A stretch of DNA of 32,621 bases from an uncultured Clostridia bacterium (GTDB lineage Bacteria > Bacillota > Clostridia > Christensenellales > Borkfalkiaceae). The stretch is from assembly GCA_947627515.1 (NCBI GenBank), contig CANQWI010000010.1, forward strand, positions 1-32,621, written 5' to 3'. Shown in pieces: positions 11,022 to 24,836 of this stretch. The position numbers and the translations under genes were made by a program. The first letter of the stretch is position 1. Every line of letters starts with the position of its first letter. The notes beneath the pieces were generated by a model. The model saw nothing but the letters and a program-made list of their open reading frames with translations. It did not search any database and was not told where the DNA came from.

Positions 11022-11040
11022 TTCTATGTCTGACACAGTA
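11022..11040. promoter_or_regulatory. Operator motif copy A (degenerate)
   Basis: TTCTATGTC, central T, GACACAGTA: a dyad with one mismatched arm position. It lies about 8-26 bases before the permease start codon on the minus strand, where a bound protein would block transcript elongation or a start-proximal promoter. Confidence 0.55.
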
Positions 11041-11075
11041 ATTTTTATGAAAAAATTTGGAAATTTTGAAAAAAA

Positions 11076-11096
11076 TATGTCAGACATAGTACTATG
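11076..11096. promoter_or_regulatory. Operator motif copy B, between the divergent PadR-fusion and permease genes
   Basis: TATGTC-A-GACATA joined to the perfect palindrome CATAGTACTATG, sharing CATA. It ends four bases before the -35 box of the PadR-fusion promoter and covers the -10/+1 region of the predicted permease promoter. Copies C and E have the same 21-bp core apart from the central base. Confidence 0.65.
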
Positions 11097-11114
11097 ACTA
11101 TTGACAAAAATCGA
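11086..11114 (-). promoter_or_regulatory. Candidate permease promoter embedded in operator B
   Basis: On the minus strand, TCGATT (11114-11109), 17 bases, TACTAT (11091-11086). The same arrangement (TTGATT or TTGATA, 17-18 bases, TACTAT) appears at copies C and E. The transcript start would fall inside the palindrome. Each box is only a partial match to consensus. Confidence 0.4.
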
Positions 11115-11129
11115 AATTTGTTATATAAT
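11101..11129 (+). promoter_or_regulatory. Consensus sigma-A promoter of the PadR-fusion gene
   Basis: TTGACA (11101-11106), 17 bases, TATAAT (11124-11129), both perfect. A strong AAGGAGG ribosome site follows and the ATG is at 11156. Operator B lies directly upstream of the -35 box, which fits autoregulation. Confidence 0.85.
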
Positions 11130-11155
11130 AGAGAAAACGATAAGGAGGAAAGTCC

Positions 11156-13258
11156 ATGGACGAGGAAACCATGAACGTGGAGACGGACGACGACGAGCAG
11201 GTCACCGCTTCACCCGATGCGGAGGACGAGCGCGGCGACAAGAGCGTGAGCGCAGATCTCATCCGCGGTCACATCAATACCATCATTCTCCGTTCCCTCT
11301 ACGACGGCGATAAATACGGCTATGAGATCATCGCCGAGATCGAACGGAAGAGCTCGGGACAATATTCTTTAAAACAACCCTCCCTCTACTCTGCCCTGAA
11401 ACGTCTCGAGAAGGACGGCTACATCACCTCCTACTGGGGAGGCTCCGTCGGGGGCGGGAGAAGAAAATATTTCTCTCTGACCGATGAAGGGAAGGCCGTC
11501 TCCGAGCAGAATCAGGCAGAATGGGAGTACTCGAGAACAATCATCGATTCTCTCATCTCCGACCGTGACTTCGACTTCAACCGTCCTGCTCCCACCGCTG
11601 TAGATATGAGCGTTCTCAGGCGGTCGACCTCACGTGTCCCCTCTCGCGAGGATGAGGACAGCGAGGAATTTTCCTTTGAACCGGGATTCGACGATTCCTC
11701 TCTCAGAGAAAAGCTCGAGGAGGAGACCAAAAAGAAGCAGGAGGAGTTCGAGACCGCCTATGCCGAAAAGCAGAAGGCACTCGAGGAGGAATATTCCGAA
11801 AGACTTGCCGCACTGGATCGCGAGCGCAGCGATTTTGAATCCGAAAAAGCCCGCCTTACCGAGGAAATGAACGCCCGCGAAAGAGAGCTCAACGACTCCT
11901 ACGAGGCGAATCTCAGGCAGCTCGCCCTCATCCGTGAACAGCAGGAGGCCTTTCTTGCGTCAAGGAAGGAGGAGATGCTGCGGGAGGTCGAGGCCGCGCG
12001 GGCCGAGCTCGATGCGGAGAAGGACAAGCAGTCCGAGGCAACCGCAGAGGAGACCGAGGCCCTTCAGAGAGAACTGGAGCTTCAAAAGCGCAGATTCGAT
12101 GAGGAATCCAAGGAGCATACCCGCATGCTGCAGGCACTCACACAGTCCAACGAGCAGGCCCTTCTCGATCAGCGCGAGGCAAGCGAGGCTTCTCTGCGAG
12201 CCGAAAAGGAGCTCCGCGAGAAGCAACTTAGGGAGCTTTCCGAGAGACACGAGAGAGAGCTTTCCGACCTGCGCGAATCTGTCCGCACCGAAAAAGAGGA
12301 GGCCGTCCGTCTCGCCCGTGAGCAGGAGGCGCAGCTCCGCGAAGCGCAGTTCCAGACAGAGCGCAACCACTTCACCGAGGTCCTTGCCGAGGAACGCAAC
12401 CGTTACAATGCCGCTCTCGACGAGGAGGCTGCCCGACATGACGCACAGGTCAAGGACGACCGCGCCCGCTATCAGCAGGCCCTCGATGAGCAGGTCGCCT
12501 CTCTGCGCCGCCAGATGGAAAACGAGCTTGCCGAGCGTGAACGGCAATTTATCCACCGCAACTACATTTCCCTCGTCGACTCCCCCGCCTCTGCGGCACA
12601 GACGGCCTACCCGCAGCAGCCTGCGGCCGCCGAGCCTCCCCGTCAGGAGACAGAGAGCTATCGGGATGTCGTCGGGCGGCTCTATGAAAATTCCGTCCGT
12701 CCGAGCGCAAGGGTAAGCGAGGAGTCCTCCGCGACCCCCGTCTCGGGGATCGATTTCCGTGATATCAAAAACCGCGCAAGCCGTGACGGCCTGCGTGTGG
12801 AAACGGTCGGAGGCGAGACGCCGAAGCTTCCCGAGAAATCCGATGAGGTCAATACCGTCCACAAGGGCAAGGCCCTCTTCCTGAGCTCCGTCGTCGTCTT
12901 CTTCTGGTGCATCCTCGTCGGCGGCATCACGATGGGACTCAACGGCACACTCGCGCTCCCCGTCTTTTACCCCTATCTTATGTGGGGTCTCGGTCTCGTC
13001 CTTCTTTTGACGACAGGACTCCTCTTTGCGAACCACTTCGGCGAAAACAGACTCCGCAAGCCATCTCTTTCGCTCATCAATGCGATCGTGATCTACGCAC
13101 TCATCGTGATCATCGCTCTCATCATTGCCCTTTCGGCGAGGATCAGCTTTGCGGACGTATCTCAGCTCATGACATTTGTGCTTCTTCCCGCGATCTACTC
13201 CATCGCAGTACTCATCTTCGGCGTCTGCTACTTCCTGCAGGTCAGACCGAAAAAGTAA
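11156..13258 (+). CDS. PadR-family winged-helix protein fused to a long coiled coil and four membrane helices
   Basis: A 700-residue protein of unusual build. Residues about 34-125 are a PadR winged helix (LIRGHINTIILRSLYDG, KYGYEIIAEIE, then recognition segment QPSLYSALKRLEKDGYI and wing GGGRRKYFSLTDEGK). Residues about 181-495 are almost entirely E, R, K, Q, A and L with no proline, a long coiled coil. Residues about 500-565 are a polar, proline-containing linker. Residues 571-700 hold four predicted transmembrane helices and end in RPKK. Ordinary PadR repressors have about 110-190 residues and no membrane part. The ATG at 11156 follows AAGGAGG and a consensus promoter. It probably acts as a membrane-tethered DNA-binding dimer controlling itself and the divergent permease; that role is inferred. 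The negatively charged first 30 residues precede the DNA-binding domain. Confidence 0.85.
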   Translation: MDEETMNVETDDDEQVTASPDAEDERGDKSVSADLIRGHINTIILRSLYDGDKYGYEIIAEIERKSSGQYSLKQPSLYSALKRLEKDGYITSYWGGSVGGGRRKYFSLTDEGKAVSEQNQAEWEYSRTIIDSLISDRDFDFNRPAPTAVDMSVLRRSTSRVPSREDEDSEEFSFEPGFDDSSLREKLEEETKKKQEEFETAYAEKQKALEEEYSERLAALDRERSDFESEKARLTEEMNARERELNDSYEANLRQLALIREQQEAFLASRKEEMLREVEAARAELDAEKDKQSEATAEETEALQRELELQKRRFDEESKEHTRMLQALTQSNEQALLDQREASEASLRAEKELREKQLRELSERHERELSDLRESVRTEKEEAVRLAREQEAQLREAQFQTERNHFTEVLAEERNRYNAALDEEAARHDAQVKDDRARYQQALDEQVASLRRQMENELAERERQFIHRNYISLVDSPASAAQTAYPQQPAAAEPPRQETESYRDVVGRLYENSVRPSARVSEESSATPVSGIDFRDIKNRASRDGLRVETVGGETPKLPEKSDEVNTVHKGKALFLSSVVVFFWCILVGGITMGLNGTLALPVFYPYLMWGLGLVLLLTTGLLFANHFGENRLRKPSLSLINAIVIYALIVIIALIIALSARISFADVSQLMTFVLLPAIYSIAVLIFGVCYFLQVRPKK

Positions 13259-13272
13259 AATATCGCCATATG

Positions 13273-13303
13273 AAAAGCGTCGGATCGCTGTCCGACGCTT
13301 TTT
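13273..13303. terminator. Bidirectional terminator between the PadR fusion and rho
   Basis: A perfect 12-bp stem (AAAAGCGTCGGA / TCCGACGCTTTT, loop TCGCTG) has A-rich and T-rich flanks, so it can end transcripts from both convergent genes. Confidence 0.88.
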
Positions 13304-13314
13304 CCATACGTTGC

Positions 13315-14769
13315 TTATTTACCTTTATAAACCCTGAGCCATTCGGGAAGGCGTGCGAGAAATTCTGCGTTGTCCTGCGTCTTTTCCATCATTTCATAGA
13401 GCGCGACGGGATCCTCTGTAAGGCGCAGGGCTCTCAATTGGGATACGGCAGAAAGCTCTTTCTCGCTGAGCAACATCTCCTCCTTGCGCGTTCCCGAGCG
13501 TCTGAGATCGAGTGCAGGGTAAATTCTTCTCTCTGCAAGTGTCTCCGAGAGGATAATGTCGGAATTCCCCGTCCCCTTGAATTCCTCGTAGATCACCTCA
13601 TCCATGCGGCTGCCCGTGTCGACAAGGACGGTCGCAAGAACGGTAAGACTTCCCTGATCGACGGTGTTGCGGGCAACGCCGAAGCACTTCTTCGCCTCGG
13701 CAAGCGCATTTGCCTCAAGACCGCCCGAAAGCGTTTTCCCCGTGCTTTCCGTGGTAATGTTAAAGGCGCGGGTGAGCTTTGTGAGCGAATCGAGCAGAAT
13801 GACGGCGTCCTTGCCTTGCTCCACGAGACGCTTGCAATGCTCCACGACAAGCCTTACGGCACGGATGTGACTTTCCGCATTCTCGTCAAAATTGGAATAA
13901 ATCACCCTCGCATTGGGAACGGAGCGGACGAAATCGGTGACCTCCTCGGGCCGCTCGTCAATAAGGAGAACGTTGAGCTCGATGTCGGGGTAGCTCTCCG
14001 CGATGGCCGCGGCGAGCTTTTTGAGGAGCGTCGTCTTCCCGGCCTTGGGTGGCGCGACGATGATCCCCCTCTGCCCCTTTCCGATGGGAACAAAGAGATC
14101 GATGAGCCGAAGAGTGAGATCGGAATTCCTACCCGAGAGGACGAGCTTCTCGTCTGAATACTGCGCCATGAGATTTTCGAAGCGCGGCCGCTGCTCATAC
14201 ATCCCGATGATACTGCCGTTGACGGAGCCGAGGACCTCGATCGAGGGTGAACCGCTCCGCTTGCCGCGGGAGGCCGTGCAGGTGATCTCGTCCCCCTCTC
14301 TCAGCTTCATATCGCGAATATAGTCGGGGGGAACAAAGACGTCAAGCCCCCTCGTTGATGGCTGGCAGTTTTTCACCCTCAAAAATCCATACCCCGTCGG
14401 CATGAGCTCAAGGATGCCGCGGTAAAGAATATCGTTCCCCGCATGCAGGCGGTCCTCATATTCAGGGGATGCCACGCCGATCAAATTCTCCGCTTCCTCG
14501 CAATTTCTCCTGATCTGTGCAAGCATGGTAAAGATCTCGGGAGAGACCTCGGTATGCTTCGGCGGGGCTCCGCGATGCTTCTTTTTGTCTAAATTCACGG
14601 GGGGAAAAGGATTATTTTCCAAGGAGTCGATGAGAAACTCGATAAGGGCGTCCTTTTCGTATTGCGTCACCTTTTCGACCCCGAAATACCTTGCAATGAC
14701 GCGGAGCTTTAAAACCGGCAGCGTCTGAAGATAGTGCCTGTAGCTGATTTCAAGTAAGAGATTATTCAT
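13315..14769 (-). CDS. rho: Transcription termination factor Rho
   Basis: A hexameric RNA-dependent ATPase that releases transcripts at Rho-dependent terminators; 484 residues. Residues about 17-50 form the Rho N-terminal helical domain. A basic, proline-containing linker follows. The cold-shock-type RNA-binding domain spans about 113-183 (YRGILELMPTGYGFLR, DVFVPPDYIRDMKLREGD). Walker A is APPKAGKTT (239-247), Walker B is VILLDSLTKLTRA, and RRIYPALDLRRSGTRKEE matches the conserved C-terminal segment. The ATG at 14769 follows GGAG and overlaps the stop of the MBL gene by eight bases, so Rho is the last gene of a DUF1934-MBL-rho operon. The frame is open upstream, but those codons lie inside the MBL gene. 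Confidence 0.95.
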   Translation of the reverse strand: MNNLLLEISYRHYLQTLPVLKLRVIARYFGVEKVTQYEKDALIEFLIDSLENNPFPPVNLDKKKHRGAPPKHTEVSPEIFTMLAQIRRNCEEAENLIGVASPEYEDRLHAGNDILYRGILELMPTGYGFLRVKNCQPSTRGLDVFVPPDYIRDMKLREGDEITCTASRGKRSGSPSIEVLGSVNGSIIGMYEQRPRFENLMAQYSDEKLVLSGRNSDLTLRLIDLFVPIGKGQRGIIVAPPKAGKTTLLKKLAAAIAESYPDIELNVLLIDERPEEVTDFVRSVPNARVIYSNFDENAESHIRAVRLVVEHCKRLVEQGKDAVILLDSLTKLTRAFNITTESTGKTLSGGLEANALAEAKKCFGVARNTVDQGSLTVLATVLVDTGSRMDEVIYEEFKGTGNSDIILSETLAERRIYPALDLRRSGTRKEEMLLSEKELSAVSQLRALRLTEDPVALYEMMEKTQDNAEFLARLPEWLRVYKGK

Positions 14770-15400
14770 GATGATTCTCCAAAACAATGAGCTGCGTCTG
14801 TTGGGTAAGGTCGGCCTGCACGACCTCAAGTGCCGCTTCCCTGCGGTAATTCCCGCCCATTGCCTTTATAAAACGTTTTTCATCCTCGATATCGACGGTG
14901 AGACCCCTGACATAATAATGCATGGGAATGACGATGGAGGGCGAGAGCGCCTTCACGTAGCGGGCCGCCTCGTCGCCGTCGATCGTGTAATTTCCCCCGA
15001 CAGGGATCAAGAGAATATCCGATCTCGGGATCCTCCTCAGAGAGCTCTCGCCGAATTTTTCTCCGAGGTCGCCGAGATGGGTCACGCGCAGCCCATCGAT
15101 GAGAAGGCTGAAGATGAGATTTCTCCCCCGCTTTCTCCCCTCGGCATCGTCGTGAAAGCTCTCAATGGCTTGAATCTCGATCCCATTGTAGCAAAAACTG
15201 CCCGCATCTTTAAGGATCACGGGCTGCCCGCCGACGGCAGAGACGTTGCAATGGTCATAGTGACCGTGGCTGACCGTCACAATGTCGCTTTTCAGCTGCG
15301 GAAGCAAAATGCCGACGTCCCCATACGGGTCAGTCAGAACGGTAGCTCCGTTTTTTGCGCACAGCAAAAAACACGAGTGACCGATGTGAATGATTTTCAT
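14762..15400 (-). CDS. Metallo-beta-lactamase-fold metal-dependent hydrolase
   Basis: A 212-residue cytoplasmic MBL-fold hydrolase, close in size and motifs to UPF0173/UlaG-like proteins. The metal motif HxHxDH is H45-G-H47-Y-D49-H50 in VTVSHGHYDHC. Further ligands are likely in HLGDLGE and IPMHYYV. The substrate is unknown; relatives act on lactones, cyclic phosphates or RNA. Its start overlaps the DUF1934 stop by ATGA and its stop overlaps the rho start, so all three are translationally linked. Confidence 0.88.
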   Translation of the reverse strand: MKIIHIGHSCFLLCAKNGATVLTDPYGDVGILLPQLKSDIVTVSHGHYDHCNVSAVGGQPVILKDAGSFCYNGIEIQAIESFHDDAEGRKRGRNLIFSLLIDGLRVTHLGDLGEKFGESSLRRIPRSDILLIPVGGNYTIDGDEAARYVKALSPSIVIPMHYYVRGLTVDIEDEKRFIKAMGGNYRREAALEVVQADLTQQTQLIVLENHHE

Positions 15401-15786
15401 TGTTGTTCTGTGATAAGTTTGATGTGGATTTTCAGAAAAAATTTCTGAGAGGGACCTGAACCGAGGTCATAGAAAAGCTTTGAAAAAATTTCCGATTCGG
15501 AAAAAAAAGATTTGCAAACGTGCGTGAAAAGCGGGAGCTCTGCGGCAGCATCCCGCGCCGACATCCTGAAGAAGGAGCTCTTGCCGTGTAAAAACTCGGC
15601 GTCAAAACAGCTGCTTCCTCTCCGCTTCAGGAGGATGCGATCCCGAAAAAGCGTGAGCGTAGAGGTATCGCCCTCGATCGGATATGTGATTTCCGCGCCC
15701 TCCGAAATGCGGTCTGAATTTCCGATCGCACAAAAGCGAGATACTTTTCCCATCGTACGCGTCACAATAACGATTTGTACGTTCAT
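15397..15786 (-). CDS. DUF1934 (YwiB-like) beta-barrel protein
   Basis: A 129-residue protein of the DUF1934/YwiB family, predicted to fold as a small calycin-like barrel. The sequence NVQIVIVTRTMGKVSRF followed by the AEITYPIEGDTSTLTLFRDRILLKRRG strands is typical. Its function is unknown. The ATG at 15786 is preferred over the one at 15795, because the second overlaps the -10 box TATAAT of the nearer promoter. With that promoter the transcript would start at or one base before the 15786 ATG, giving a leaderless message. No Shine-Dalgarno sequence is seen. It is the first gene of the operon with MBL and rho, and operator copy C lies 61 bases upstream. Confidence 0.8.
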   Translation of the reverse strand: MNVQIVIVTRTMGKVSRFCAIGNSDRISEGAEITYPIEGDTSTLTLFRDRILLKRRGSSCFDAEFLHGKSSFFRMSARDAAAELPLFTHVCKSFFSESEIFSKLFYDLGSGPSQKFFLKIHIKLITEQQ

Positions 15787-15793
15787 TGCATCC

Positions 15794-15822
15794 ATTATAC
15801 AACATATTTGTTAAAAAGTAAA
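15794..15822 (-). promoter_or_regulatory. Proximal, leaderless-type promoter of the DUF1934 operon
   Basis: On the minus strand, TTTACT (15822-15817), 17 bases, TATAAT (15799-15794), then seven bases to the ATG at 15786. Confidence 0.6.
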
Positions 15823-15847
15823 CCTATTTGTGCAGAAAAGATGTATT

Positions 15848-15868
15848 TATGTCTGACATAGTACTATG
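15848..15868. promoter_or_regulatory. Operator motif copy C, upstream of the DUF1934-MBL-rho operon
   Basis: TATGTC-T-GACATA joined to CATAGTACTATG. It differs from copy B only at the central base. It lies between the stop of the YgjP-like gene and the DUF1934 start. Confidence 0.65.
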
Positions 15869-15886
15869 TAAAATGCCAAAAATCAA
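15858..15886 (-). promoter_or_regulatory. Distal candidate promoter of the DUF1934 operon within operator C
   Basis: On the minus strand, TTGATT (15886-15881), 17 bases, TACTAT (15863-15858). The start point would lie inside the palindrome, as at copies B and E. Confidence 0.45.
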
Positions 15887-15890
15887 AAAT

Positions 15891-16520
15891 TTAAAGACAT
15901 TTCATCGCCCATAAGTACTGCTTTAACGCTTTTCTCCTGAGGGAATAGTCGGGCAGGAGCTTTTCGACATCCCTCCAGAAGGCCGCGCTGTGGTCGAGAT
16001 GGCGGGTGTGGCAGAGCTCGTGGACGGCGAGATAGACGGCGAGCGCATCGGGCAGGAAGGCGGTGCGGAAGGTATACGAGATCCTCCCCCGCGCATTGCA
16101 GGACCCCCATCTTGTCCTCGCCGAGGTGATCGTGATCCCGCTGAACCGAAAGCCATGCTTTTTTGCGATCTCATCAGTGAGGTGCGTCATTCTCTCGCGG
16201 GTGAGTCTTTTTAAAAGGGAAATGAGTGCCTCCTCTCTATTTTCTTGGGGCAAAAACAGCGTCCCGTCTTTAATACCCGCTCTGCCTGTTGCGACCGTGA
16301 AATTATTTCCGAAGAGAAATACGACGCTCCCGTCCGTAAATTCAGGCTTGACGGCAGCCCTCTGCTCCGCAATACGGCGGGAGATCCATCTCCTGTGTTT
16401 TGACAAAAAGGCCGCGATCTTCTCCTCGGAAAGCCTCATGGGCGCACGGACGACGACCTGCCCGTCCTTCACGGTGACGCTGATCGTCTTTTTATTTGTT
16501 CTGACCAAGGTATATTCCAT
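15891..16520 (-). CDS. YgjP-like (DUF45) zinc metallopeptidase
   Basis: A 209-residue protein of the YgjP/DUF45 family, related to M48 metallopeptidases. The zinc motif HELCH is at 167-171, with a further histidine in TRHLDHSAAFW (174 or 177). Upstream are the family hallmarks SARTRWGSCNARGRISY and the N-terminal RTNKKTISVTVKDGQVVVRAP. The physiological substrate is unknown. The ATG at 16520 is chosen because a promoter (-10 at 16533-16528) ends seven bases before it. The longer frame from 16556 would start inside the promoter. There is no Shine-Dalgarno sequence, so leaderless translation is likely. It is divergent from aroA. Confidence 0.85.
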   Translation of the reverse strand: MEYTLVRTNKKTISVTVKDGQVVVRAPMRLSEEKIAAFLSKHRRWISRRIAEQRAAVKPEFTDGSVVFLFGNNFTVATGRAGIKDGTLFLPQENREEALISLLKRLTRERMTHLTDEIAKKHGFRFSGITITSARTRWGSCNARGRISYTFRTAFLPDALAVYLAVHELCHTRHLDHSAAFWRDVEKLLPDYSLRRKALKQYLWAMKCL

Positions 16521-16527
16521 ATGATCG

Positions 16528-16556
16528 ATTATAGCACATTTTCTCCGCGCGGGCAA
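16528..16556 (-). promoter_or_regulatory. Leaderless-type promoter of the YgjP-like gene
   Basis: On the minus strand, TTGCCC (16556-16551), 17 bases, TATAAT (16533-16528), then seven bases to the ATG. Confidence 0.65.
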
Positions 16557-16560
16557 GCAC

Positions 16561-16589
16561 TTGACATCCCTGACTATTTATGCTAAAAT
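16561..16589 (+). promoter_or_regulatory. Leaderless-type promoter of aroA
   Basis: TTGACA (16561-16566), 17 bases, TAAAAT (16584-16589), then six bases to the ATG at 16596. It sits back to back with the divergent YgjP promoter, the -35 boxes being four bases apart. Confidence 0.8.
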
Positions 16590-16595
16590 TCAAGC

Positions 16596-17855
16596 ATGTG
16601 CGCATTTACGGTTGATAAGATCAAAACAAGCCAATTCACGGTCGAGGTCCCCGCCTCCAAGAGTATCCTCAACCGTGCGATCCTGCTCGCGGCCTTCACG
16701 GAAGGAGATACAACTCTGCAATGCGGAGGCTACGGCGAGGACACAGTCTCCCTCCTTTCCTGTCTCTCCGCACTCGGGATCCCTGCATTCCACACGCAAG
16801 ACGGCCTTCTCATCCGCGGAACGCGGCATTTTCAAAGAAAAGCCACACTTGACGTGGGCAGCGCGGGGACGGCCGCACGGTTTTTACCCGCGATCCTTGC
16901 CTTTGCGGGCGGGGAATATGAGTTTCACGCGTCCATACAGATGAGCGCACGGCCAATGGAGCTTCTCTCCATCCTCTCTGCGCTCGGGATCCGCATCGAA
17001 TATCTTGACAAGCAAGGCCATTTCCCCTTCACAATGCATTCCGACGGCGTAAAAGCGAGCAAGGCGCAGGTCCCGACCGACATCAGTACCCAGTATGCGA
17101 GCGGCCTCATGCTTGCCGCGGCCATCGGGGAGACGCCCTTTACGGTCGACCTCTCGGGAAATCGCACGGAGGGAAGCTATCTCGCCATGACCGCCTCCCT
17201 CATCCGCGCCTTCAAGGGCGGCTGTGAAAGGGTAAATAAGAGCTACCGTCTCTCTCCCATCCGCGAGGAGACAAAATATTTCAAGGTCGAGCCCGACATC
17301 TCGGGCGCGTGCTATTTCTACGCACTCTCCCTCCTCACGGGTGCGGAGGTCACCGTCGAGGATGTGCATTTTGACACGCTGCAGGGAGATATCCGCTTCC
17401 TCGGGCTTCTGCGGGACAAGGGAGTCCGCTTGCATGACGGGGAGGCAGGAATTGTCGCAGACGGACGCCGTATCCCGTTTTACATGGGATTCGACGAGGA
17501 AATGGTGGATTTCTCCGACCAAACCATGACGGTCGCCGTGCTCGCCGCATTTGCAAGCTCCCCCTCCATCCTGAGAGGAGTCTCCCACATTCAATGGCAG
17601 GAGAGCGACCGCATGACTGCGATCGTGAAAAATCTGAATTCTCTGGGCGCAAGAGCCTTTCCCGTCGGAGAAGACATCTTTATTGAGCCTGCCGACACGC
17701 AGTCGTGCACGATCGAGAGCTTCGGGGACCATCGGATCGCAATGGCCTTCGCGCTCGCGGGACTAAAACGCGGCGGCGTCACCATTGACGATCCCGATTG
17801 CTGTAAAAAGACCTTCCCACACTATTTCGACATCCTTTCAACGCTTACAAGCTGA
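16596..17855 (+). CDS. aroA: 3-phosphoshikimate 1-carboxyvinyltransferase (EPSP synthase)
   Basis: Joins phosphoenolpyruvate to shikimate 3-phosphate, the sixth step of the shikimate pathway to chorismate. It has 419 residues, close to the family's usual 420-440. Markers are VPASKSILNRAILLAA (residues 18-33), DVGSAGTAARFLPA in place of the common NAGTA-R segment, SARPM, TDISTQYASGLMLAA, DFSDQTMTVAVLAAFA, and the C-terminal QESDRM and ESFGDHRIAMAFALAG. The start at 16596 has no ribosome site, and the -10 box is only six bases away, so the mRNA is probably leaderless. No other shikimate gene is adjacent; an AroK-like gene lies 11 kb away. Confidence 0.95.
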   Translation: MCAFTVDKIKTSQFTVEVPASKSILNRAILLAAFTEGDTTLQCGGYGEDTVSLLSCLSALGIPAFHTQDGLLIRGTRHFQRKATLDVGSAGTAARFLPAILAFAGGEYEFHASIQMSARPMELLSILSALGIRIEYLDKQGHFPFTMHSDGVKASKAQVPTDISTQYASGLMLAAAIGETPFTVDLSGNRTEGSYLAMTASLIRAFKGGCERVNKSYRLSPIREETKYFKVEPDISGACYFYALSLLTGAEVTVEDVHFDTLQGDIRFLGLLRDKGVRLHDGEAGIVADGRRIPFYMGFDEEMVDFSDQTMTVAVLAAFASSPSILRGVSHIQWQESDRMTAIVKNLNSLGARAFPVGEDIFIEPADTQSCTIESFGDHRIAMAFALAGLKRGGVTIDDPDCCKKTFPHYFDILSTLTS

Positions 17856-17859
17856 AATA

Positions 17860-17896
17860 CGGCCCCGCACCACCTGCGGGGCCGAACGTTATTTTT
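17860..17896 (+). terminator. Terminator of aroA, overlapping the convergent regulator gene end
   Basis: A 10-bp GC stem (CGGCCCCGCA / TGCGGGGCCG, loop CCACC) is followed by AACGTTATTTTT. The T-rich part doubles as the last codons of the DtxR-type gene on the other strand. The tail GGCCGAACGTTATTTT recurs almost unchanged at 24267-24282. Confidence 0.7.
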
Positions 17897-18251: not shown

Positions 18252-18270
18252 GTCCTCACCTCTCCCCACC

Positions 18271-18299
18271 ATTATAAGGGATTTTCATTGAATTGTAAA
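18271..18299 (-). promoter_or_regulatory. Sigma-A promoter of the DtxR-type gene
   Basis: On the minus strand, TTTACA (18299-18294), 17 bases, TATAAT (18276-18271), 20 bases before the ATG, with a ribosome site in between. Confidence 0.7.
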
Positions 18300-18353
18300 G
18301 AGCATTTTTTAAAATTTTTTCAACCTTTTTTGAAAAAAGTCATAGAAATTCCC

Positions 18354-18821
18354 TCAAAGCACCCCGCGCAGATAGGATATGAGAGCACGGCAGCCCTCAT
18401 CGATATCGCGAAAAGCATCGTCAAAGCTCCCCGTGTACCAGGGGTCGGAAATCGGACGAGGCCGCGAGGAAAAATCGAGGAGCATTTTGACCTTGTGGGC
18501 ATTCCTTTGACCGACGATCCTTTTCATATCCTCCACATTCCGCACGTCCATGCCGATGAGGAGATCATACATCTCCCCGTCCTCCTGCGTCATCAGCCGT
18601 GCGGTATGCGGAACAAGCGGGATCCCTTTCCTTCTCAAAATTTCGACGGTACCCCGATGCGGCCGACATCCGAGCGCGTCCTCATGCGCGGCGGCAGAGG
18701 CTACCTTAACTCGATCCTCCATCCCGGCCTCCTTGAGAAGCGCGGTCATGATACTCTCGGCCATGGGAGACCTGCAAATATTTCCGTGACAAATGAACAG
18801 AATTTGAAAAGTTTTTGTCAT
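18354..18821 (-). CDS. Low-molecular-weight protein-tyrosine phosphatase
   Basis: A 155-residue cytoplasmic phosphatase of the LMW-PTP/arsenate reductase-like fold. The P-loop is C11-HGNIC-R17-S (CX5R), and the general acid aspartate is in DPWYTGSFDDAF near the C-terminus. Full length for the family. Bacterial members remove phosphate from tyrosine or arginine residues; the substrate here is unknown. The start at 18821 has neither a good ribosome site nor a recognisable promoter in the AT-rich upstream region, so the start is less certain. Confidence 0.9.
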   Translation of the reverse strand: MTKTFQILFICHGNICRSPMAESIMTALLKEAGMEDRVKVASAAAHEDALGCRPHRGTVEILRRKGIPLVPHTARLMTQEDGEMYDLLIGMDVRNVEDMKRIVGQRNAHKVKMLLDFSSRPRPISDPWYTGSFDDAFRDIDEGCRALISYLRGVL

Positions 18822-18921
18822 AAATTTTCAAAAATTTGGAATTTTACCATTTAATTTGTTGTTTTGAGTGAAAATTTTTTTAAAAAACATGTAAAAATTG
18901 AAAAATTTTATCTAAAAAGTG

Positions 18922-18950
18922 TTGCAATTTTCATTTTCCCATGTTATAAT
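18922..18950 (+). promoter_or_regulatory. Leaderless-type promoter of the XRE gene
   Basis: TTGCAA (18922-18927), 17 bases, TATAAT (18945-18950), then six bases to the ATG at 18957. Confidence 0.65.
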
Positions 18951-18956
18951 GTATAT

Positions 18957-19160
18957 ATGAAAATTTTCTCAGAAAGGCTTTTAGAGCTCAGAAGGGAGCG
19001 TGGTCTCTCGCAGGCCACCGTTGCAAGAGATTTGAGCGTAAGTCTTGGCATCGTTTGCTATTGGGAAAGGAACAAAAGTGACCCCACTGCATCGAATATC
19101 GCCAAGCTCGCCCGTTATTTCAACGTAACGAGCGACTATCTGCTCGGTCTCGCCGATTGA
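18957..19160 (+). CDS. Small XRE-family helix-turn-helix regulator
   Basis: A 67-residue DNA-binding protein that consists of little more than one Cro/C1-type helix-turn-helix (LLELRRERGLSQATVARDL, IVCYWERNKSDPT, IAKLARYFNVTSDYLLGLAD). Such short proteins act as local repressors or phage- or plasmid-derived regulators; no target is evident here. The frame extends to 18864, but the ATG at 18957 is chosen because the fold starts there and a promoter places the transcript start at this codon. Confidence 0.85.
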   Translation: MKIFSERLLELRRERGLSQATVARDLSVSLGIVCYWERNKSDPTASNIAKLARYFNVTSDYLLGLAD

Positions 19161-19218
19161 TTTTTTCTTTGCTTGGAGATTGTATGGCGCCGTAGGTTGA
19201 CGCGGGAGATTCATCGTG

Positions 19219-19257
19219 AAAAAATCCGAACCGTCCGCCCTTGCGGCGGATTTTTTT
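19219..19257. terminator. Bidirectional terminator between the XRE and M50 genes
   Basis: On the plus strand, TCCGCC, loop CTTGC, GGCGGA, then seven T. The A-run and TCCG on the left can pair with CGGA and T-run on the right for the opposite direction. The stop codon of the minus-strand M50 gene lies inside the T-run. Confidence 0.75.
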
Positions 19258-20131
19258 ATGTCCTGAATTTTTCGATCTCCGCACGCTCCTCCTCTGTCAT
19301 GTACTCCTCAAGGGAAAGCAGGCGGTCGGAGATCTCCTTTGCCCCCTCCTCGTCCCCCATCTCCGCAAGATAATTTCGCCGCAGAAGCAGGAGCGCGTGA
19401 AAGGCAGGAAGATCCTCTCTGACGATCGGCGTCAAAAAGAGCATGTCCCTGTCGATATCCGCATATGTCCCCCGATTAAGGATCCCCTGCGCCGTGAGAA
19501 CACGGAGCATGATCTCTTCCTCGGCGGCATGCTTGAGAAGCCCGACAAGCACGGCGCCATCCGTTTTCCCCGCGGGGAGTTCGGCGGGAAGGAGCGCGAT
19601 AAGCCCCTCCTGCACAAGAAATATACTCATCAGTCCCCCGAACAGGGTCCCGATATGGAAGGGCAAAAGCACATACACGAGCAGGAGCGCGATCCCGACC
19701 GCAAGGCAGAGTGTCGGCCCGCCCAAAGTGAATACAATTGTCTTCGCCCGAACATGCCCTCCGCTCCATGGATGCATCTCTGTTGCACCTGCATAGGCGG
19801 GATCCACGAGCCTTACTCTTCTGCGGGAGCGGTCCTTTTGATCCTCTCCGGATCTGCCGCACTCTGCAGCTGAGATTTTTAAATAGGAAAAGGTGATGCT
19901 GACGAGCTTCATCCCCGCGATCCAGCCGAAGAGAAGGTGGCCGAGCTCATGGACAGCAGCAGGGATACGAAGCGCGAGAGTAGCGATAAAGGCGAGCCAA
20001 ATCAACCAAACGGGCGTCGTCACAGGCCGCGGCACAGTAAAAACGATGAGCAGAATTACGCCCGCAAAGGCAGCAATGCGAAGCGTAAATTCAGTGAAAT
20101 TATAGAGCCTTCTCTTTGTATTTCCGCTCAT
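19256..20131 (-). CDS. M50-family (site-2-protease-like) membrane metalloprotease
   Basis: A 291-residue membrane protein with four to five predicted helices. The zinc motif is HELGH at residues 61-65 within a hydrophobic segment. The second M50 motif is degenerate but recognisable as LLPAELPAGKTDGAVL in the later membrane region. The C-terminal 90 residues are soluble and acidic. M50 proteases cleave membrane-embedded substrates such as anti-sigma factors or pro-sigma factors. The start overlaps the ppx stop by ATGA and follows AAGGGA, so it is the last gene of the yabP-yabQ-divIC-ppx operon. A sporulation or division substrate is inferred only from that position. Confidence 0.8.
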   Translation of the reverse strand: MSGNTKRRLYNFTEFTLRIAAFAGVILLIVFTVPRPVTTPVWLIWLAFIATLALRIPAAVHELGHLLFGWIAGMKLVSITFSYLKISAAECGRSGEDQKDRSRRRVRLVDPAYAGATEMHPWSGGHVRAKTIVFTLGGPTLCLAVGIALLLVYVLLPFHIGTLFGGLMSIFLVQEGLIALLPAELPAGKTDGAVLVGLLKHAAEEEIMLRVLTAQGILNRGTYADIDRDMLFLTPIVREDLPAFHALLLLRRNYLAEMGDEEGAKEISDRLLSLEEYMTEEERAEIEKFRT

Positions 20132-20982
20132 TTCAGTCCCTTGAGGGCAAGGTATCCCTCTAAATTGTCTCTATCTGAGAATTTGACCTCGGAAATTCCC
20201 ATCCTCTCCATGATCTGCTCCAGCAGGAGCGTCGCCCCGCCGAGGATGTCTGCGCGGGCCGCATCCATCCCCTTCAGCAGTCTTCTCTCCTCCAAGGGGA
20301 GCGCAAAAAGACGCTCTGAAGTATCCCTTACCCATTTACGGGGAAGAGCTGTCTCTTGAAGCAGAGCGGGGTCGTACCCCTCAAGCTCCAATTTCAGACT
20401 TGCAAGCGTGGAAGCCGTGCCGCCGACCGCATAGACGGTGTCCGAGGCCGCAACAGGAAGCTCCGCGAGCGTAGAACGGATGCGGGAAAGCAGCTTGTCC
20501 ATGTCCTCACCGCATTCGTCATGCAGCCGGACCGCACCGATGTCGAGGCTGCGGGTAAAGACGAGCTCACCGCACTTTTTCAGGCAAATTTCCGTACTGG
20601 CACCGCCGATATCGATAATGCCGCCGTCTCTTTTCCCCAATGCACCGAGCATCGCGAGAAGAGCCTCATCCCGCCCCGAGACGACATCGACATCCACCCC
20701 AAAAAGACGGGAGACCTCTCTGCAAAAGTCCTGTCCGTTGAGAGAGGAACGCACGGCCGCCGTCGCAAATACATGGATCTCGGCGTCAGAGCCTCGTCCC
20801 TCCCCGACAAATTCCCCGACAGCACGCAGCGTTCGCTCCATTGCAGGGAGCTGCAGACGGCCAAAGGCGGCGAGACCCTCACCAAGACGGGTCGTTTTAA
20901 CCTTTTTATATAAAGTTTTTCCGCTCGCCCAAAGCATGAGGCGAACGGAATTCGACCCGATATCGATGATCGCATACTTCAT
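20128..20982 (-). CDS. Ppx/GppA-family phosphatase
   Basis: A 284-residue member of the exopolyphosphatase/guanosine pentaphosphate phosphatase family (actin-like ATPase fold). Markers are YAIIDIGSNSVRLML at the N-terminus, FATAAVRSSLNG, the GGIIDIGGASTEI phosphate loop, and YAVGGTASTLASL. It is about 300 residues, the short form without the C-terminal HD domain. Polyphosphate or pppGpp are the known substrates; which one applies here is unclear. The ATG at 20982 overlaps the DivIC stop by one base (TAATG) and is preceded by GGAAGAAG. Confidence 0.88.
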   Translation of the reverse strand: MKYAIIDIGSNSVRLMLWASGKTLYKKVKTTRLGEGLAAFGRLQLPAMERTLRAVGEFVGEGRGSDAEIHVFATAAVRSSLNGQDFCREVSRLFGVDVDVVSGRDEALLAMLGALGKRDGGIIDIGGASTEICLKKCGELVFTRSLDIGAVRLHDECGEDMDKLLSRIRSTLAELPVAASDTVYAVGGTASTLASLKLELEGYDPALLQETALPRKWVRDTSERLFALPLEERRLLKGMDAARADILGGATLLLEQIMERMGISEVKFSDRDNLEGYLALKGLK

Positions 20983-21257
20983 TATTTCTTCTTCCAGCCC
21001 TGCTTCACGGCCTGCCAATAGAGTGCGTCGCCTGAGAAATATTCCTCGAGCACGCCCTCCTGATTCTCGATCTTCTGCTGATACTCGCCGATGCCGTTCT
21101 CAATGGCCCTGTGCTCGGAATTGAGTACGCCCATCTGAACAAACTGGACAATGAGAACGATCAGAAGGAATACTACGACAAGAACACCCGCAACCGTCGC
21201 CCCTACGGCAATACGACGATATTTAGCCTGTTTTTGTTCTTTTACCTCTTCTTCCAT
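20982..21257 (-). CDS. divIC: Septum-formation protein of the DivIC/FtsB family
   Basis: A 91-residue bitopic membrane protein. Residues 1-17 are cytoplasmic and charged, about 18-41 are a transmembrane helix, and 45-75 form a short coiled coil (LNSEHRAIENGIGEYQQKIENQE), followed by the conserved-style ending EEYFSGDALYWQAVKQGWKKK. DivIC works with FtsL and DivIB/FtsQ in septal peptidoglycan synthesis. The neighbours yabP and yabQ upstream match the order known in Bacillus (yabP-yabQ-divIC), which supports the call. The ATG at 21257 follows AAAGGGA and lies inside the end of yabQ (35-base overlap). Confidence 0.85.
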   Translation of the reverse strand: MEEEVKEQKQAKYRRIAVGATVAGVLVVVFLLIVLIVQFVQMGVLNSEHRAIENGIGEYQQKIENQEGVLEEYFSGDALYWQAVKQGWKKK

Positions 21258-21579
21258 GATGCGTATTCCCTTTGTTTTTCTGTACAGTTCTATTATACAG
21301 CTTTTCCGAGAAAAAAGCAACAATTTTATGGAAACTTTTCAAATAGAGAAAAAATCCGAGGACACAGCCGAGCAAATGGTAAAAACGCAGGGCTTCGAAT
21401 CCCAAAATGACCGCAAAAAACACATAGAGCACGGCAAATTCCATGCAAAACAGGAAATCGCAAAGTATCCGAAGCCACCGTTTCCGATAGAGGCTTCGGA
21501 TAAAATAGAGCGCGTCATACAAAAAACCGCACATGACGCCGATGAGAGCGCAATGCAGAAATGTGAGGAGCTCGTTCAT
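21223..21579 (-). CDS. yabQ: Spore cortex biosynthesis protein YabQ
   Basis: A 118-residue membrane protein of the YabQ family, required in Bacillus for assembly of the spore cortex and located in forespore-surrounding membranes. It has three to four hydrophobic segments (LTFLHCALIGVMCGFLYDAL, DFLFCMEFAVLYVFFAVILG, FYHLLGCVLGFFLYL) and a basic C-terminal tail. Its start overlaps the yabP stop by ATGA, with no ribosome site of its own, so translation is probably coupled. Its presence suggests that the organism, or a recent ancestor, forms endospores. Confidence 0.85.
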   Translation of the reverse strand: MNELLTFLHCALIGVMCGFLYDALYFIRSLYRKRWLRILCDFLFCMEFAVLYVFFAVILGFEALRFYHLLGCVLGFFLYLKSFHKIVAFFSEKLYNRTVQKNKGNTHHGRRGKRTKTG

Positions 21580-21833
21580 TTAAAAAGGCGTGAAAGTGCC
21601 CTGCCCTGCGTTCCGTATCGCACGAGCGTCACCTCGCCGCTTGCGGAAAAATTCCCCGTCCCCTCCGAAAAGGCGAGCACCTTCAGCTTGTTCCCCTCGA
21701 TCCTGACCCTCTTCCCGTTGACGGTGAGAAGAATGACATTTTCCGAAAAGGAATCCACGCTTGAAACGCCGCTCATCGCGATCCTTCTCTGCTGCTCGAT
21801 CGTAAGTATACTTTCCTTGATTTCTTCACGCAT
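21576..21833 (-). CDS. yabP: Sporulation protein YabP
   Basis: An 85-residue YabP/YqfC-family protein needed for sporulation in Bacillus, where it is made in the mother cell under sigma-E. The core reads RIAMSGVSSVDSFSENVILLTVNGKRVRIEG, then KLKVLAFSEGTGNFSASGEV and a C-terminal LSRLFK. Starts at 21890, 21866 and 21833 are all in frame and none has a ribosome site. The 21833 ATG is chosen because CATATATT ends six bases before it, an arrangement that could be a sigma-E-like -10 box with a leaderless start. The 21866 ATG (96 residues) is an equal length match to known YabP. An intrinsic terminator lies just upstream. Confidence 0.8.
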   Translation of the reverse strand: MREEIKESILTIEQQRRIAMSGVSSVDSFSENVILLTVNGKRVRIEGNKLKVLAFSEGTGNFSASGEVTLVRYGTQGRALSRLFK

Positions 21834-21875
21834 GGTACCAATATATGAACGGGACGTGAAATTCATGCAGAAAAC

Positions 21876-21905
21876 AAAAAAGGCAGGCAAATAACCTGTC
21901 TTTTT
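21876..21905 (-). terminator. Terminator of bipA, just before yabP
   Basis: On the minus strand, AAAAAGACAGG, loop TTATTTG, CCTGCC and six T. The stem (one G-T pair) extends through A-T pairs. It ends 10-40 bases before the yabP start, so any transcript entering yabP from operator D or bipA must read through it. Confidence 0.75.
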
Positions 21906-21920
21906 GACGTATTAACGAAG

Positions 21921-21939
21921 TATTATGTCTGACATAGTA
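21921..21939. promoter_or_regulatory. Operator motif copy D, between bipA and yabP
   Basis: TATTATGTC, central T, GACATAGTA: a 19-bp dyad with one mismatch. The additional CTATG arm of copies B, C and E is missing, and no -35-like box is found at the matching distance. Confidence 0.55.
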
Positions 21940-21944
21940 AGGCT

Positions 21945-23774
21945 TTATTCCCCTGCCTTTGCCTTGGCGCGGGCCTTTGCGCGCAACTCACTGTCGAGGA
22001 TGCGCTTGCGGATGCGGACGCTCGTCGGCGTAATCTCAAGAAGCTCATCGTCTGCAATAAATTCCAGTGCCTCCTCCAGCGAGAGCCTTTTGGGAGTGAT
22101 GAGGCGCAATGCCTCGTCCGACGAGGAGGAGCGGGTATTCGTCAGATGCTTCGTCTTGCAGACATTGACGTTGATATCCTCATCCTTGGGGGAATATCCG
22201 ACGACCATCCCCTCATACACCTGCGTCCCGGGGCCGATAAAGAGCGGTCCTCTGCCCTGTGCGTTGAACAGACCATAGGTCACGGCCTCTCCCGTCTCAA
22301 ACGCGACAAGCGACCCCGACGTCCTGCGCTCGATCTCTCCCTTGTAGGGTTGATATTCGAAAAACACCGAGCTCATGACGCCCTCGCCCTTGGTATCCGT
22401 CAAAAATTCACTCTTATAGCCAAAAAGCCCTCTCGCGGGCACCAGAAATTCCAGCCGCATCCGCGAACCCAACGCGCTCATGTGGATAAGCTCGCCCTTC
22501 CGCGAGCCCATGCTCTGAAAGACGGGCCCCGTCATATCCTCGGGAACGTCCACGATCAGCCGCTCCACGGGCTCATATTTTTCACCGTCGATGCTCTTGA
22601 AGAGCACTTTAGGGGAGCTCACCTGAAATTCATACCCCTCGCGGCGCATGGTTTCAATGAGAATGCTGAGGTGCATCTCCCCTCGCCCGCTGACACGGAA
22701 GGCGTCTGCGGAGTCGGTATCCTCGACCTTCAGCGAGACGTCACGCAAAAGCTCACGGTACAGCCGCTCTCTTAAGTGACGCGTGGTGACGAATTTCCCC
22801 TCCTTCCCCGCAAAGGGAGAATCGTTGACGGAAAAGATCATCTCCACGGTCGGCTCGGAGATCTTTACGAAGGAAACGGGCTCCACATGCTCGGATGCGC
22901 AGACGGTATCCCCGATGTTGATCTTCTCAAGCCCCGAAAAGCAGACGATGTCTCCCGCCCTCGCGCTCTCGCAGGGCACGCGGGAAAGGCCCTCGATCTC
23001 ATAGAGATTGACGAGCTTCCCCCTCAGATTGACCTCCTTATGATTGTAATTGCAGACGGTGACGTCGGCGTTCTGCCTCGCAACGCCGCGCTCGATGCGG
23101 CCGATCCCGATCCTGCCCACGTAATCATTATAATCGATAGAGGAAACAAGTAGCTGCAGGGGCCCTTCATCATCCAGATCGAGGGGCGGGAAATGGGAAA
23201 GGATCGTGTCAAAGAGCGGCGTCAGGTCGGCCCCCTGCACTTTCGGGTCGAGTGAAGAGGTCCCCGTTCTGCCCGAACAATACACAAACGGGCTGTCGAG
23301 CTGCTCATCCGATGCGTTGAGATCCATCAAAAGCTCCAAAATCTCATCCTCGACCTCCCCAAGACGGGCATCGGGACGGTCGATCTTGTTGATCACGATG
23401 ATGAGCTTGAGGCCGAGCTCGAGTGCCTTCTGCGTGACAAACCGCGTCTGCGGCATGGGTCCCTCGGCGGCGTCCACCAGAATCAGGACGCCCGACACCA
23501 TCTTCAGCGACCGCTCGACTTCGCCTGAAAAATCGGCATGGCCGGGGGTATCGACAATGTTGATCTTCACGCCCTTATAGTGGACGGAGGTATTCTTTGC
23601 AAGGATCGTGATGCCGCGCTCGCGCTCGAGGTCCCCCGAGTCCATGACGCGCTCCTCGACGACCTGATTTTCGCGGAAGGTGCCCGCCTGCTTCAACATC
23701 TGATCGACCAACGTCGTCTTGCCGTGGTCGACGTGTGCAATGATCGCAATGTTTCGTAAATCGTTTCTTACCAT
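21945..23774 (-). CDS. typA: Translational GTPase BipA/TypA
   Basis: A 609-residue ribosome-binding GTPase of the EF-G superfamily, involved in ribosome assembly and stress or low-temperature growth. G1 is AHVDHGKTT (about 15-23), switch I has the RGITI motif, G3 is DTPGHADF, and G4 is NKID. Domains II, III and V follow, with [26 protein letters not shown] and the BipA-specific C-terminal domain ([26 protein letters not shown]). The length is standard. The ATG at 23774 follows AAGAGGA. It is monocistronic, with its own promoter and terminator. Confidence 0.96.
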
Positions 23775-23799
23775 ACTGTCCTCTTAAATTCCACGGGAA

Positions 23800-23828
23800 A
23801 TTATAATACATCTGCCCGAAAAACACAA
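23800..23828 (-). promoter_or_regulatory. Promoter of bipA/typA
   Basis: On the minus strand, TTGTGT (23828-23823), 17 bases, TATAAT (23805-23800), then a short leader with AGAGGA before the ATG. Confidence 0.6.
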
Positions 23829-23867
23829 CAAAAAACACGGGCATTTGGAAATTTTCCCCCGTGTTTC

Positions 23868-23896
23868 TTGCTATTTGGAGAGAGTTGGGATATAAT
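23868..23896 (+). promoter_or_regulatory. Leaderless-type promoter of the ASCH gene
   Basis: TTGCTA (23868-23873), 17 bases, TATAAT (23891-23896), then six bases to the ATG at 23903. Confidence 0.65.
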
Positions 23897-23902
23897 GAAG
23901 CC

Positions 23903-24247
23903 ATGGAACATGAAATGAATTTAGCGGCGGAACCGTTCAACTTGATCGCAAGCGGGAAAAAGACGATCGAACTCCGCCTCTATGATGAAAAACGGCAGAA
24001 GATCAAGGTCGGCGACAAAATCAAGTTCACCAACGCAAGGGACGGCGCCACATTATATGCCGAAGTGCTTGCCCTCTATCTTTTTAAAAATTTTGAAGAG
24101 CTCTATCGCCCGCTTCCCCTTTCCGACTGCGGATACACGGAAGAAACGCTCAAATCGGCCTCTCCCAAGGATATGGAGGCCTATTACACGCCCGAGCGGC
24201 AAAAGCTGTACGGCGTCGTCGGGATCAAGATCAAACTGAATCGATAA
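23903..24247 (+). CDS. ASCH-domain protein
   Basis: A 114-residue protein made of a single ASCH domain (PUA-like beta barrel), a fold thought to bind RNA or modified nucleotides. Visible hallmarks are EPFNLIASGKKTIELRLYDEKR at residues about 10-31, VGDKIKFTNA, a central strand AEVLALYLFKNFEELY, and the closing GVVGIKIKL. The biological role is unknown. The start at 23903 rather than the upstream in-frame start at 23861 is based on the fold boundary and on the promoter between them. It stands alone between bipA and folA. Confidence 0.82.
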   Translation: MEHEMNLAAEPFNLIASGKKTIELRLYDEKRQKIKVGDKIKFTNARDGATLYAEVLALYLFKNFEELYRPLPLSDCGYTEETLKSASPKDMEAYYTPERQKLYGVVGIKIKLNR

Positions 24248-24249
24248 AC

Positions 24250-24282
24250 ACGTCTTGCGATAAGACGGGCCGAACGCTATTT
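24250..24282 (+). terminator. Probable terminator of the ASCH gene
   Basis: CGTCTT, loop GCGAT, AAGACG, followed by GGCCGAACGCTATTTT. The tail is nearly identical to that behind the aroA terminator hairpin. The stem is only 6 bp and the T-run is displaced, so the terminator call is moderate. It abuts the folA stop codon on the other strand. Confidence 0.5.
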
Positions 24283-24776
24283 TAGAAGGAGGCAACGCAG
24301 CGGTTCCGATAAAGACAGAACCGTATCGCGTAGCCGTTGTCCTCAACGGGGTCGCTCTCGGAGATACATGCAAAGTTTGGATCTGCGTCGAGGTCGGGGA
24401 CAAAGACGTCCGCACCGCCGTCGGCATCCACTTTCGTCACAAGAATCTCACTGCAATAGGGAATCAAAGTCCTGTAAACGCTTGCCCCGCCGATGACATA
24501 GACGTCGTCGGGCGGGTATTTTTTGAGTTCGGAAAAGAGCTCATCAAGATCGTGAACGGTCACGGTCCCCTCGATATCCGTCGGCGAAAGGACGATATTA
24601 ATGCGATCTTTCAAGGGTTTTGCATGCGGGAAGGATAGGAGCGTATTCAGCCCCATGACAACGACTTTTCCCATCGTCGTTTCACGGAAGAATTTCATAT
24701 CCTTGGGGAGCGAAAACATCAATCCGTTGTTTTTCCCGATCCCCCAACGCTTGTCGCAGTGAAAAATCGCCTTCAT
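24282..24776 (-). CDS. folA: Dihydrofolate reductase
   Basis: Reduces dihydrofolate to tetrahydrofolate with NADPH, recycling the product of ThyA encoded just upstream. It has 164 residues. WGIGKNNGLMFSLPKDMKFF contains the catalytic acid D26, TTMGKVVVMGLNT the nucleotide site, and VYVIGGASVYRTLIPYCSEI the GG-containing cofactor loop. The usual arginine of MGRxT is leucine (MGLNT, 41-45), and the LPW tryptophan region reads LMFSLPKD. The ATG at 24776 has GAGGAG about 11 bases upstream. Operator copy E and a promoter lie in the 56-base gap after thyA, so folA has its own control in addition to possible read-through. Confidence 0.93.
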   Translation of the reverse strand: MKAIFHCDKRWGIGKNNGLMFSLPKDMKFFRETTMGKVVVMGLNTLLSFPHAKPLKDRINIVLSPTDIEGTVTVHDLDELFSELKKYPPDDVYVIGGASVYRTLIPYCSEILVTKVDADGGADVFVPDLDADPNFACISESDPVEDNGYAIRFCLYRNRCVASF

Positions 24777-24793
24777 TTTGGGCTTTTCTCCTC

Positions 24794-24817
24794 TATTATG
24801 TCAGACATAGTACTATG
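24794..24817. promoter_or_regulatory. Operator motif copy E, in front of folA
   Basis: TATTATGTC-A-GACATAGTA overlapping CATAGTACTATG, the most complete copy. It lies 17 bases from the folA ATG and covers the -10/+1 region of the predicted folA promoter. Confidence 0.65.
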
Positions 24818-24836
24818 CAAAATGGCGAAATATCAA
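24807..24836 (-). promoter_or_regulatory. Candidate folA promoter, overlapping the thyA stop codon
   Basis: On the minus strand, TTGATA (24836-24831), 18 bases, TACTAT (24812-24807). The -35 box contains the thyA TGA stop. The -10 box is inside operator E. Confidence 0.5.

Follow-up and report, generated by a model that had tools for sequence, protein, structure and literature searches.

The window analysed here is a stretch of 32,621 nucleotides from an uncultured Clostridia bacterium of the Borkfalkiaceae (contig CANQWI010000010.1, assembly GCA_947627515.1), and it carries five copies of a palindromic site, named A to E, together with a gene for a PadR-family protein that ends in predicted membrane helices. 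It is rather probable that these palindromes are binding sites of a chromosome-terminus system, which would mark the terminus in Gallimonas-like Clostridia by means of a probably membrane-bound binder unrelated to RTP and MatP. The features of the locus are as follows, with scores taken from a position weight matrix (PWM) of the site.

11023..11050, strand ambiguous: site A, core at 11025-11037, near-symmetric, one core mismatch, PWM score 23 (plus) vs 21 (minus)
11074..11101, plus strand: site B, exact core; its 3' end lies at the -35 element of the promoter of the PadR-membrane gene
11101-11106 and 11124-11129, plus strand: putative promoter-like elements TTGACA and TATAAT, 17 bases apart, as read from the sequence
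11156..13258, plus strand: gene of the probable binder, 700 aa, with a PadR winged helix, a long charged helix and four membrane helices
11285..11500, plus strand: PadR DNA-binding domain, residues 44-115 (PF03551, E 3.1e-19; the domain model matches PadR structures)
11696..12568, plus strand: predicted long helix, residues ~181-471, without Pro or Gly in 178-476 (single-sequence model)
12848..13240, plus strand: four predicted C-terminal membrane helices, residues ~565-695 (hydropathy, with the protein cut at residue 661 and 75 relatives, and a low-confidence model)
15846..15873, plus strand: site C, between a YgjP-like gene and the gene of a 132-aa protein
21911..21938, minus strand: site D, between the YabP gene and the gene of a 609-aa protein (TypA-like GTPase by eye), opposite to B, C and E
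24795..24822, plus strand: site E, between the folA (DHFR) gene and the gene of a 276-aa protein (thyA by eye)

All five copies located by an earlier sequence-only reading of the window were recovered where it had placed them. Its claim that they exceed chance is borne out, as shuffled sequences yield 0.06 matches compared with 10 rows observed (five places, each counted on both strands). Sites B and E agree at all 21 bases, and site C departs from them at the central W only, in agreement with the near-identity already reported. The copies are also intergenic relative to the called genes, with site A touching the start of an uncalled open reading frame (9958-11019, minus strand). This frame, previously taken for a permease gene, matches no Pfam family, and its N-terminus is membrane-like in appearance. 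A common orientation had been proposed for the whole set; it stands for B, C and E, which point in one direction, and fails for D, which scores better when reversed (33 vs 21), and for A, which is near-symmetric (23 vs 21).

When the copies are aligned, the site appears as an asymmetric element of 28 bp, TAT-TATGTCWGACATA-GTACTATG-CAAAA, that holds two overlapping palindromes; the full palindrome reads TACT-ATGTCWGACAT-AGTA. The second palindrome stands alone in one locus from another family of the order (L162, f29), where a perfect 18-base palindrome upstream of the PadR-membrane gene, TTGCATAGTACTATGCAA, equals the second half of the site in the window. In the window's own genome (G000, a 1.53-Mb draft of 125 contigs, 71% complete), the core TATGTCWGACATA occurs at 16 places exactly and at 28 with at most one mismatch, compared with 1 for the reversed-pattern control. 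The sequence TATGTCWGACATAGTA, again with at most one mismatch, was detected in 103 of 103 genomes of the window's genus, just three of which gave any match to the reversed control, and in 65 of 297 genomes sampled from the order. The PWM was built from 23 copies of G000 alone, and scores of at least 12 and at least 18 were used to define a site and a strong site, respectively. At the lower threshold it returned 33 positions in two relatives (both strands, palindromic partners counted) vs 0 in one shuffled set. Across the window's genus and its sister genus g2, about ten to thirty sites per genome form convergent arrays and are found both within and between genes, sometimes in pairs.

The chromosomal location of the sites was determined in two long-contig relatives, G289 and G349, that belong to g2 within the window's family. 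In these two draft genomes the terminus was placed by GC skew, with 90% of contig 1 covered in G289 and the whole contig 1 (373 kb) in G349. In G289, GC skew and coding strand switch together from plus to minus at 592-604 kb, and this flip marks the replication terminus; in G349, the equivalent change of skew and gene strands is found near 75-82 kb. Of the 16 strong sites in the covered part of the G289 contig, 14 are located at 548-772 kb, and strong sites are absent from 161-373 kb of the G349 contig. Whole-genome scans with a 21-base pattern (at most three mismatches) placed 11 of 11 rows of G289 on contig 1 at 553-818 kb, a region of 266 kb that spans the flip, and 12 of 13 rows of G349 on contig 1 at 32-161 kb, with no match to the reversed pattern in either genome. 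Palindromic sites confined to the terminus region, a feature of the MatP/matS type, are hence present in both relatives, bar two far places in G289. In the 11 genomes with listings for both, the contig that holds the best dnaA match carries none of the listed sites. Contig 1 of G289 also carries a different palindrome, AGAAAC-N3-GTTTCT, at eight places (88950 to 809863, vs 0.05 expected), spread along the contig.

The strand of the sites is ordered around the flip as well. All eight strong sites to its left in G289 are on the minus strand and six of the eight to its right are on the plus strand; in G349 the corresponding values are four of four minus on the left and, on the right, four of six plus, one minus and one ambiguous. 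For a permutation test of this polarity, 18 genomes from the window's family were used, in which 220 places were retained after dropping 6 ambiguous ones and 45 contigs contained at least two sites. Here, 151 converging and 16 diverging site pairs were counted, a result that 0 of 20,000 within-contig permutations reached. A convergent array reads minus before plus in either orientation of the contig. An earlier pair count, which included four genomes from two other families (f32 and f19) that lie outside the 18-genome set, had given 72 vs 8. Polar sites converging on the terminus, as known for RTP/Ter, are accordingly found, with exceptions.

Further information on polarity comes from the named loci of the binder's relatives, of which the best 80 of 535 were taken. 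The gene was located in 77 (three were without a located gene), and these 77 loci represent the nearest relatives of the binder; 66 of the 80 were used for strand counts. In 62 of these 66 the PadR gene is head-on to replication, as judged from the skew of its flanks, and the other sites lie on the strand of the PadR gene in 66 cases vs 1, many of them orthologous and so non-independent. Same-strand sites at a distance similar to that of site C are present in many of the named loci. Because the PadR gene is head-on and the other sites share its strand, these data suggest that the strand of a site is set by replication rather than by transcription.

The earlier proposal that the PadR fusion protein binds the palindromes is well supported by sequence comparison, and the protein encoded at 11156-13258 is the likely binder. 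In 75 of the 77 named loci the gene is preceded by a site with a score of at least 12: in 59 of them this site is at most 420 bases from the YGYEI codons, and in 16 of the other 18 it is found at up to 1,500 bases, which allows for longer N-termini. Nearly all of these close relatives show another feature of the RTP/Ter type, in which the binder's own gene has a site near its promoter. Additionally, the site is compatible with PadR-s2 specificity. Passages on the PadR-s2 regulator cdPadR1 state that it requires TACT(N11-12)AGTA, that its motif starts with GTACTAT and that it autoregulates (PMC5050560), and the window-type site fits TACT(N11)AGTA. When 53 sites, part of which had served to build the matrix, were turned with their better side to the right, AGTA was found on the right in 45, and 27 had a TACT-like half on the left, as TATT in 19 and as TACT in 8.

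The window protein is a member of the PadR family (winged helix, PF03551) and falls outside the terminus families tested. RTP (PF02334) was found in 0 of 61 genomes of the genus and MatP (PF06303) in 0 of 10 genomes, with positive controls in B. subtilis and E. coli, respectively; RTP was also not among the 50 entries listed by a structure comparison of the PadR model, which is uninformative. The model of the PadR domain (mean predicted local distance difference test score, pLDDT, of 73) resembles PadR structures, and PadR-s2 proteins are among the closest solved relatives of the binder. In the full-length model, helix is predicted at residues 181-291 and 297-471, followed by four helices at 565-695. 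The mean pLDDT of this model is 61 and is low over the membrane helices; by blocks, it amounts to 76-92 over residues 181-460, except for 64 at 291-300, and to 44 at 461-470. The C-terminal part has no Pfam family at cut-off. Hydropathy analysis of 75 complete named relatives predicts four membrane helices in 64, five in 9 and six in 2, and the architecture of PadR domain, long helix and membrane part is likewise present in relatives. Among the PadR-membrane proteins of loci L167-L246, open frames range from ~540 to 1,200 residues (one cut frame excluded), partly owing to N-terminal extension, with the PadR and membrane ends kept.

Long PadR chains with C-terminal hydrophobic helices occur in families f1, f3, f6, f8, f10, f14, f16, f18, f19, f20, f24, f29 and f32 of the order. 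A crude helix count of the complete long chains gave three to five helices in most and two in one f19 protein. In 291 genomes of the class, PadR frames outside the order have at most 234 residues among the matches listed, and the long ones listed fall within the order. Records close to the window's protein are from uncultured Clostridia and some Candidatus Gallimonas, with more distant ones including a Candidatus Borkfalkia, so that the window's genus is probably Gallimonas. In the NCBI taxonomy, Borkfalkia belongs to Christensenellales and Gallimonas has no assigned position. The gene itself tends to lie close to the terminus. In G289 and G349 its distance from the skew flip is ~45-55 kb, and in G237 (f32) and G387 (f6) it coincides with the flip. 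Of 10 further genomes, 8 (f6, f8, f16, two of f19, two of f24, f32) have it flanked by plus skew to the left and minus skew to the right, measured 40-60 kb off. In total, 12 of 14 genomes (f1, f6, f8, f16, f19, f24 and f32), chosen non-randomly for their long contigs, have the gene in the vicinity of the terminus, compared with ~7% estimated for a random gene. Two genomes of genus g3 in the window's family (f1), G144 and G380, contain no match to a 16-base site pattern; G144 is also without a protein match and G380 has a diverged one, as if site and protein had been lost or changed together.

Several observations weigh against a terminus system bound by this protein. The terminus positions rest on GC skew in draft genomes. 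Two strong sites of G289, at 324 and 474 kb, are distant from the flip, and orientation is opposed at 641030 and 646911 in G289 and at 89141 in G349. Comparison of the places in G000 with local skew shows 17 that agree, 6 that oppose, site D being one of them, and 4 that are ambiguous. In G104 (f3) and G295 (f32) the binder gene is not between opposite skews. The sites of G237 (f32) mostly consist of the symmetric core and do not carry the extension. The upstream site also thins with distance from the window's lineage: it was found, at a score of at least 12 and in reversed orientation, in 4 of 8 f32 loci of the first set, and no such site was detected in the f3, f6, f8, f10, f14, f16, f20 and f24 loci. 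Families f3 and f6 carry the protein, and yet a site motif could not be found in either. Finally, the long helix (~290 residues) shows no significant 3.5-residue (heptad) period and may therefore form a single helix rather than a coiled coil.

For f6, a search for an alternative motif among palindromes and 10-mers yielded nothing convincing. One candidate, TATTATAATA, occurs at six places near the terminus and was discarded as resembling promoter sequence. In the f3 loci L147-L149, an inverted repeat surrounds the -35 element upstream of the PadR-membrane gene, in L149 as ACTATTATA-N15-TATAATAGT; it is perhaps the operator of the f3 relatives.

By analogy, the proposed terminus system resembles RTP/Ter or MatP/matS in its layout. 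RTP is a winged-helix dimer, and the PadR domain of the binder is a winged helix too. In contrast to RTP, the PadR domain is here joined to a long helix and membrane helices, and fork arrest would have to be presumed. Passages on RTP/Ter of Bacillus subtilis describe polar terminus sites, each Ter being made up of two binding sites that overlap and are unequal, as well as a Ter located near the promoter of the binder gene and the arrest of a fork that meets the strong site first (PMC10331603). Tus/ter of Escherichia coli is similarly described with polar sites pointing to the terminus and an autoregulated gene (PMC6549158, PMC10331603), and differs in that Tus binds as a monomer (PMC10331603). 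MatP/matS is set apart from the window's system by the membrane helices that the binder here has of its own. The matS sites are not known to be polar. Short sites spread across the terminus region for chromosome organisation are a shared trait in the passages on MatP/matS and ZapT of Caulobacter (PMC7858052), and MatP is described to touch lipids (PMC6538776). The PadR-s2 regulators cdPadR1 and LmrR share the DNA-binding domain, by sequence and fold, and the site rule; their solved chains are short, with 98 to 204 residues. For cdPadR1, ~200 motif matches are given for its genome, and the passages considered name no terminus array (PMC5050560). HAAS-PadR dyads also link PadR to a partner with multiple membrane helices, as a separate protein in the passages describing them, unlike the single chain with a membrane part found here (PMC11237479). 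Two unrelated fork traps are described in passages of Galli et al. (2019), which place RTP-related sequences in a Bacillales subgroup only (PMC6549158). No paper on a system such as the one considered here was found among the top-ranked titles of the open-access literature.

In the proposed mechanism, the PadR domains would bind the sites as dimers, and the protein would regulate its own gene. The four membrane helices would anchor it in the cell membrane, the long helix would act as a spacer, and through the bound sites DNA of the terminus could be collected at the membrane up to the end of the cell cycle. The simplest purpose that four membrane helices could have is the tethering of this DNA. 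The asymmetry of the sites, with the AGTACT half toward the origin and a presumably weaker half toward the terminus, the side that the core palindrome faces, could produce a direction-sensitive complex, which may therefore have an effect on forks or DNA translocases that pass it as well. The polarity of the sites is, by analogy, that of a fork trap. A wider version of this proposal is advanced tentatively, as less likely than not: an independently evolved, lineage-wide system with an integral-membrane DNA binder that would keep the terminus at membrane or septum and, at the same time, present forks or translocases with a polar barrier, so that one protein would combine the roles of Tus or RTP with that of MatP.

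The closest competitor is a third, unrelated fork trap, in which the PadR protein on its polar sites would mainly block forks past the terminus, like Tus or RTP, and the membrane part would be secondary. This is somewhat unlikely. The converging polarity agrees with it, as do the site in the promoter region of the binder gene and the two overlapping palindromes, which match the descriptions of Tus and RTP in the passages cited above, and forks leaving the terminus would meet the core side first. On the other hand, a roadblock has no need of four membrane helices and a 290-residue helix, no RTP family protein is present in the 61 genomes, some sites are wrongly oriented, and the G237 sites mostly lack the asymmetric extension. 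It is quite improbable that the sites serve another terminus factor, as XerD-like unloading sites for SMC or as polar FtsK/SpoIIIE guides, with the PadR gene carrying one by chance. Guides for DNA translocases are polar, in line with the arrays. Passages on B. subtilis also report that XerD unloads SMC at the terminus (PMC12322038). Against such a factor, the site fits the PadR-s2 half-site rule and recurs upstream of the PadR gene in nearly all of the named loci, and no dif-like match was found near the skew flips in the parts covered, the best one in G349 (22/28 bases) being at 367 kb.

The sequence-only reading had interpreted the palindromes as a PadR regulon, with operators ahead of target genes. 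The PadR-type site, the position of site B beside a promoter and the intergenic location of 18 of the 28 rows in G000, 12 of the 28 being 15-45 bases past a stop codon, are in its favour. In the two relatives, however, strong sites crowd at the terminus and many lie within called genes (8 of 16 in G289 and 7 of 10 in G349, i.e. 15/26, in DNA that is 89-91% coding). Nine site-bearing proteins searched against Pfam all belong to known families: IPP transferase (miaA), MurB, HI0933-like, CoaE, His_biosynth, Semialdhyde_dh, Peptidase_S11, HAD and Transgly. Of the six others, four are orthologues of those nine and two represent a 181-aa protein of unknown function. Moreover, no site was found within 350 bases of the folA and thyA orthologues (394 kb in G289, 206 kb in G349) or of the yabP orthologue (301 kb in G289), which are away from the terminus; these three genes constitute the orthologue test, as the parts covered offered no orthologue that could be used for the other neighbours of the window's sites. 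Together with the convergent strands across the 18 genomes, these results led to rejection of the regulon as highly improbable, and the palindrome copies are probably not ordinary gene-control switches. The same reading had offered a dispersed repeat as the alternative should copies lie mostly inside genes, a majority that is seen in the two relatives and not in the window's genome. A dispersed mobile or selfish repeat agrees with several palindromic copies that are sometimes paired, and is nevertheless hardly credible: it was rejected on account of the clustering and polarity of the sites and their conservation, in some genes, at the same codons across species. For miaA and the transglycosylase gene, the codon position of the site is shared by G000, G289 and G349; for murB and the HI0933-like gene, it is shared by the two g2 relatives. 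In five genes, third-codon identity is 40/50 within sites vs 463/1,824, a comparison biased by the choice of genes for orthologues with a site; one of the five, encoding the 181-aa protein, has its site in opposing orientation.

If the favoured reading of a terminus system with a membrane-bound PadR protein is true, a group of uncultured gut Clostridia would possess a polar terminus system of a third kind, based on a PadR protein anchored in the membrane, which would show how such systems arise. It would also provide a physical link between terminus and membrane, and its sites would serve as sequence marks of the terminus in draft genomes.

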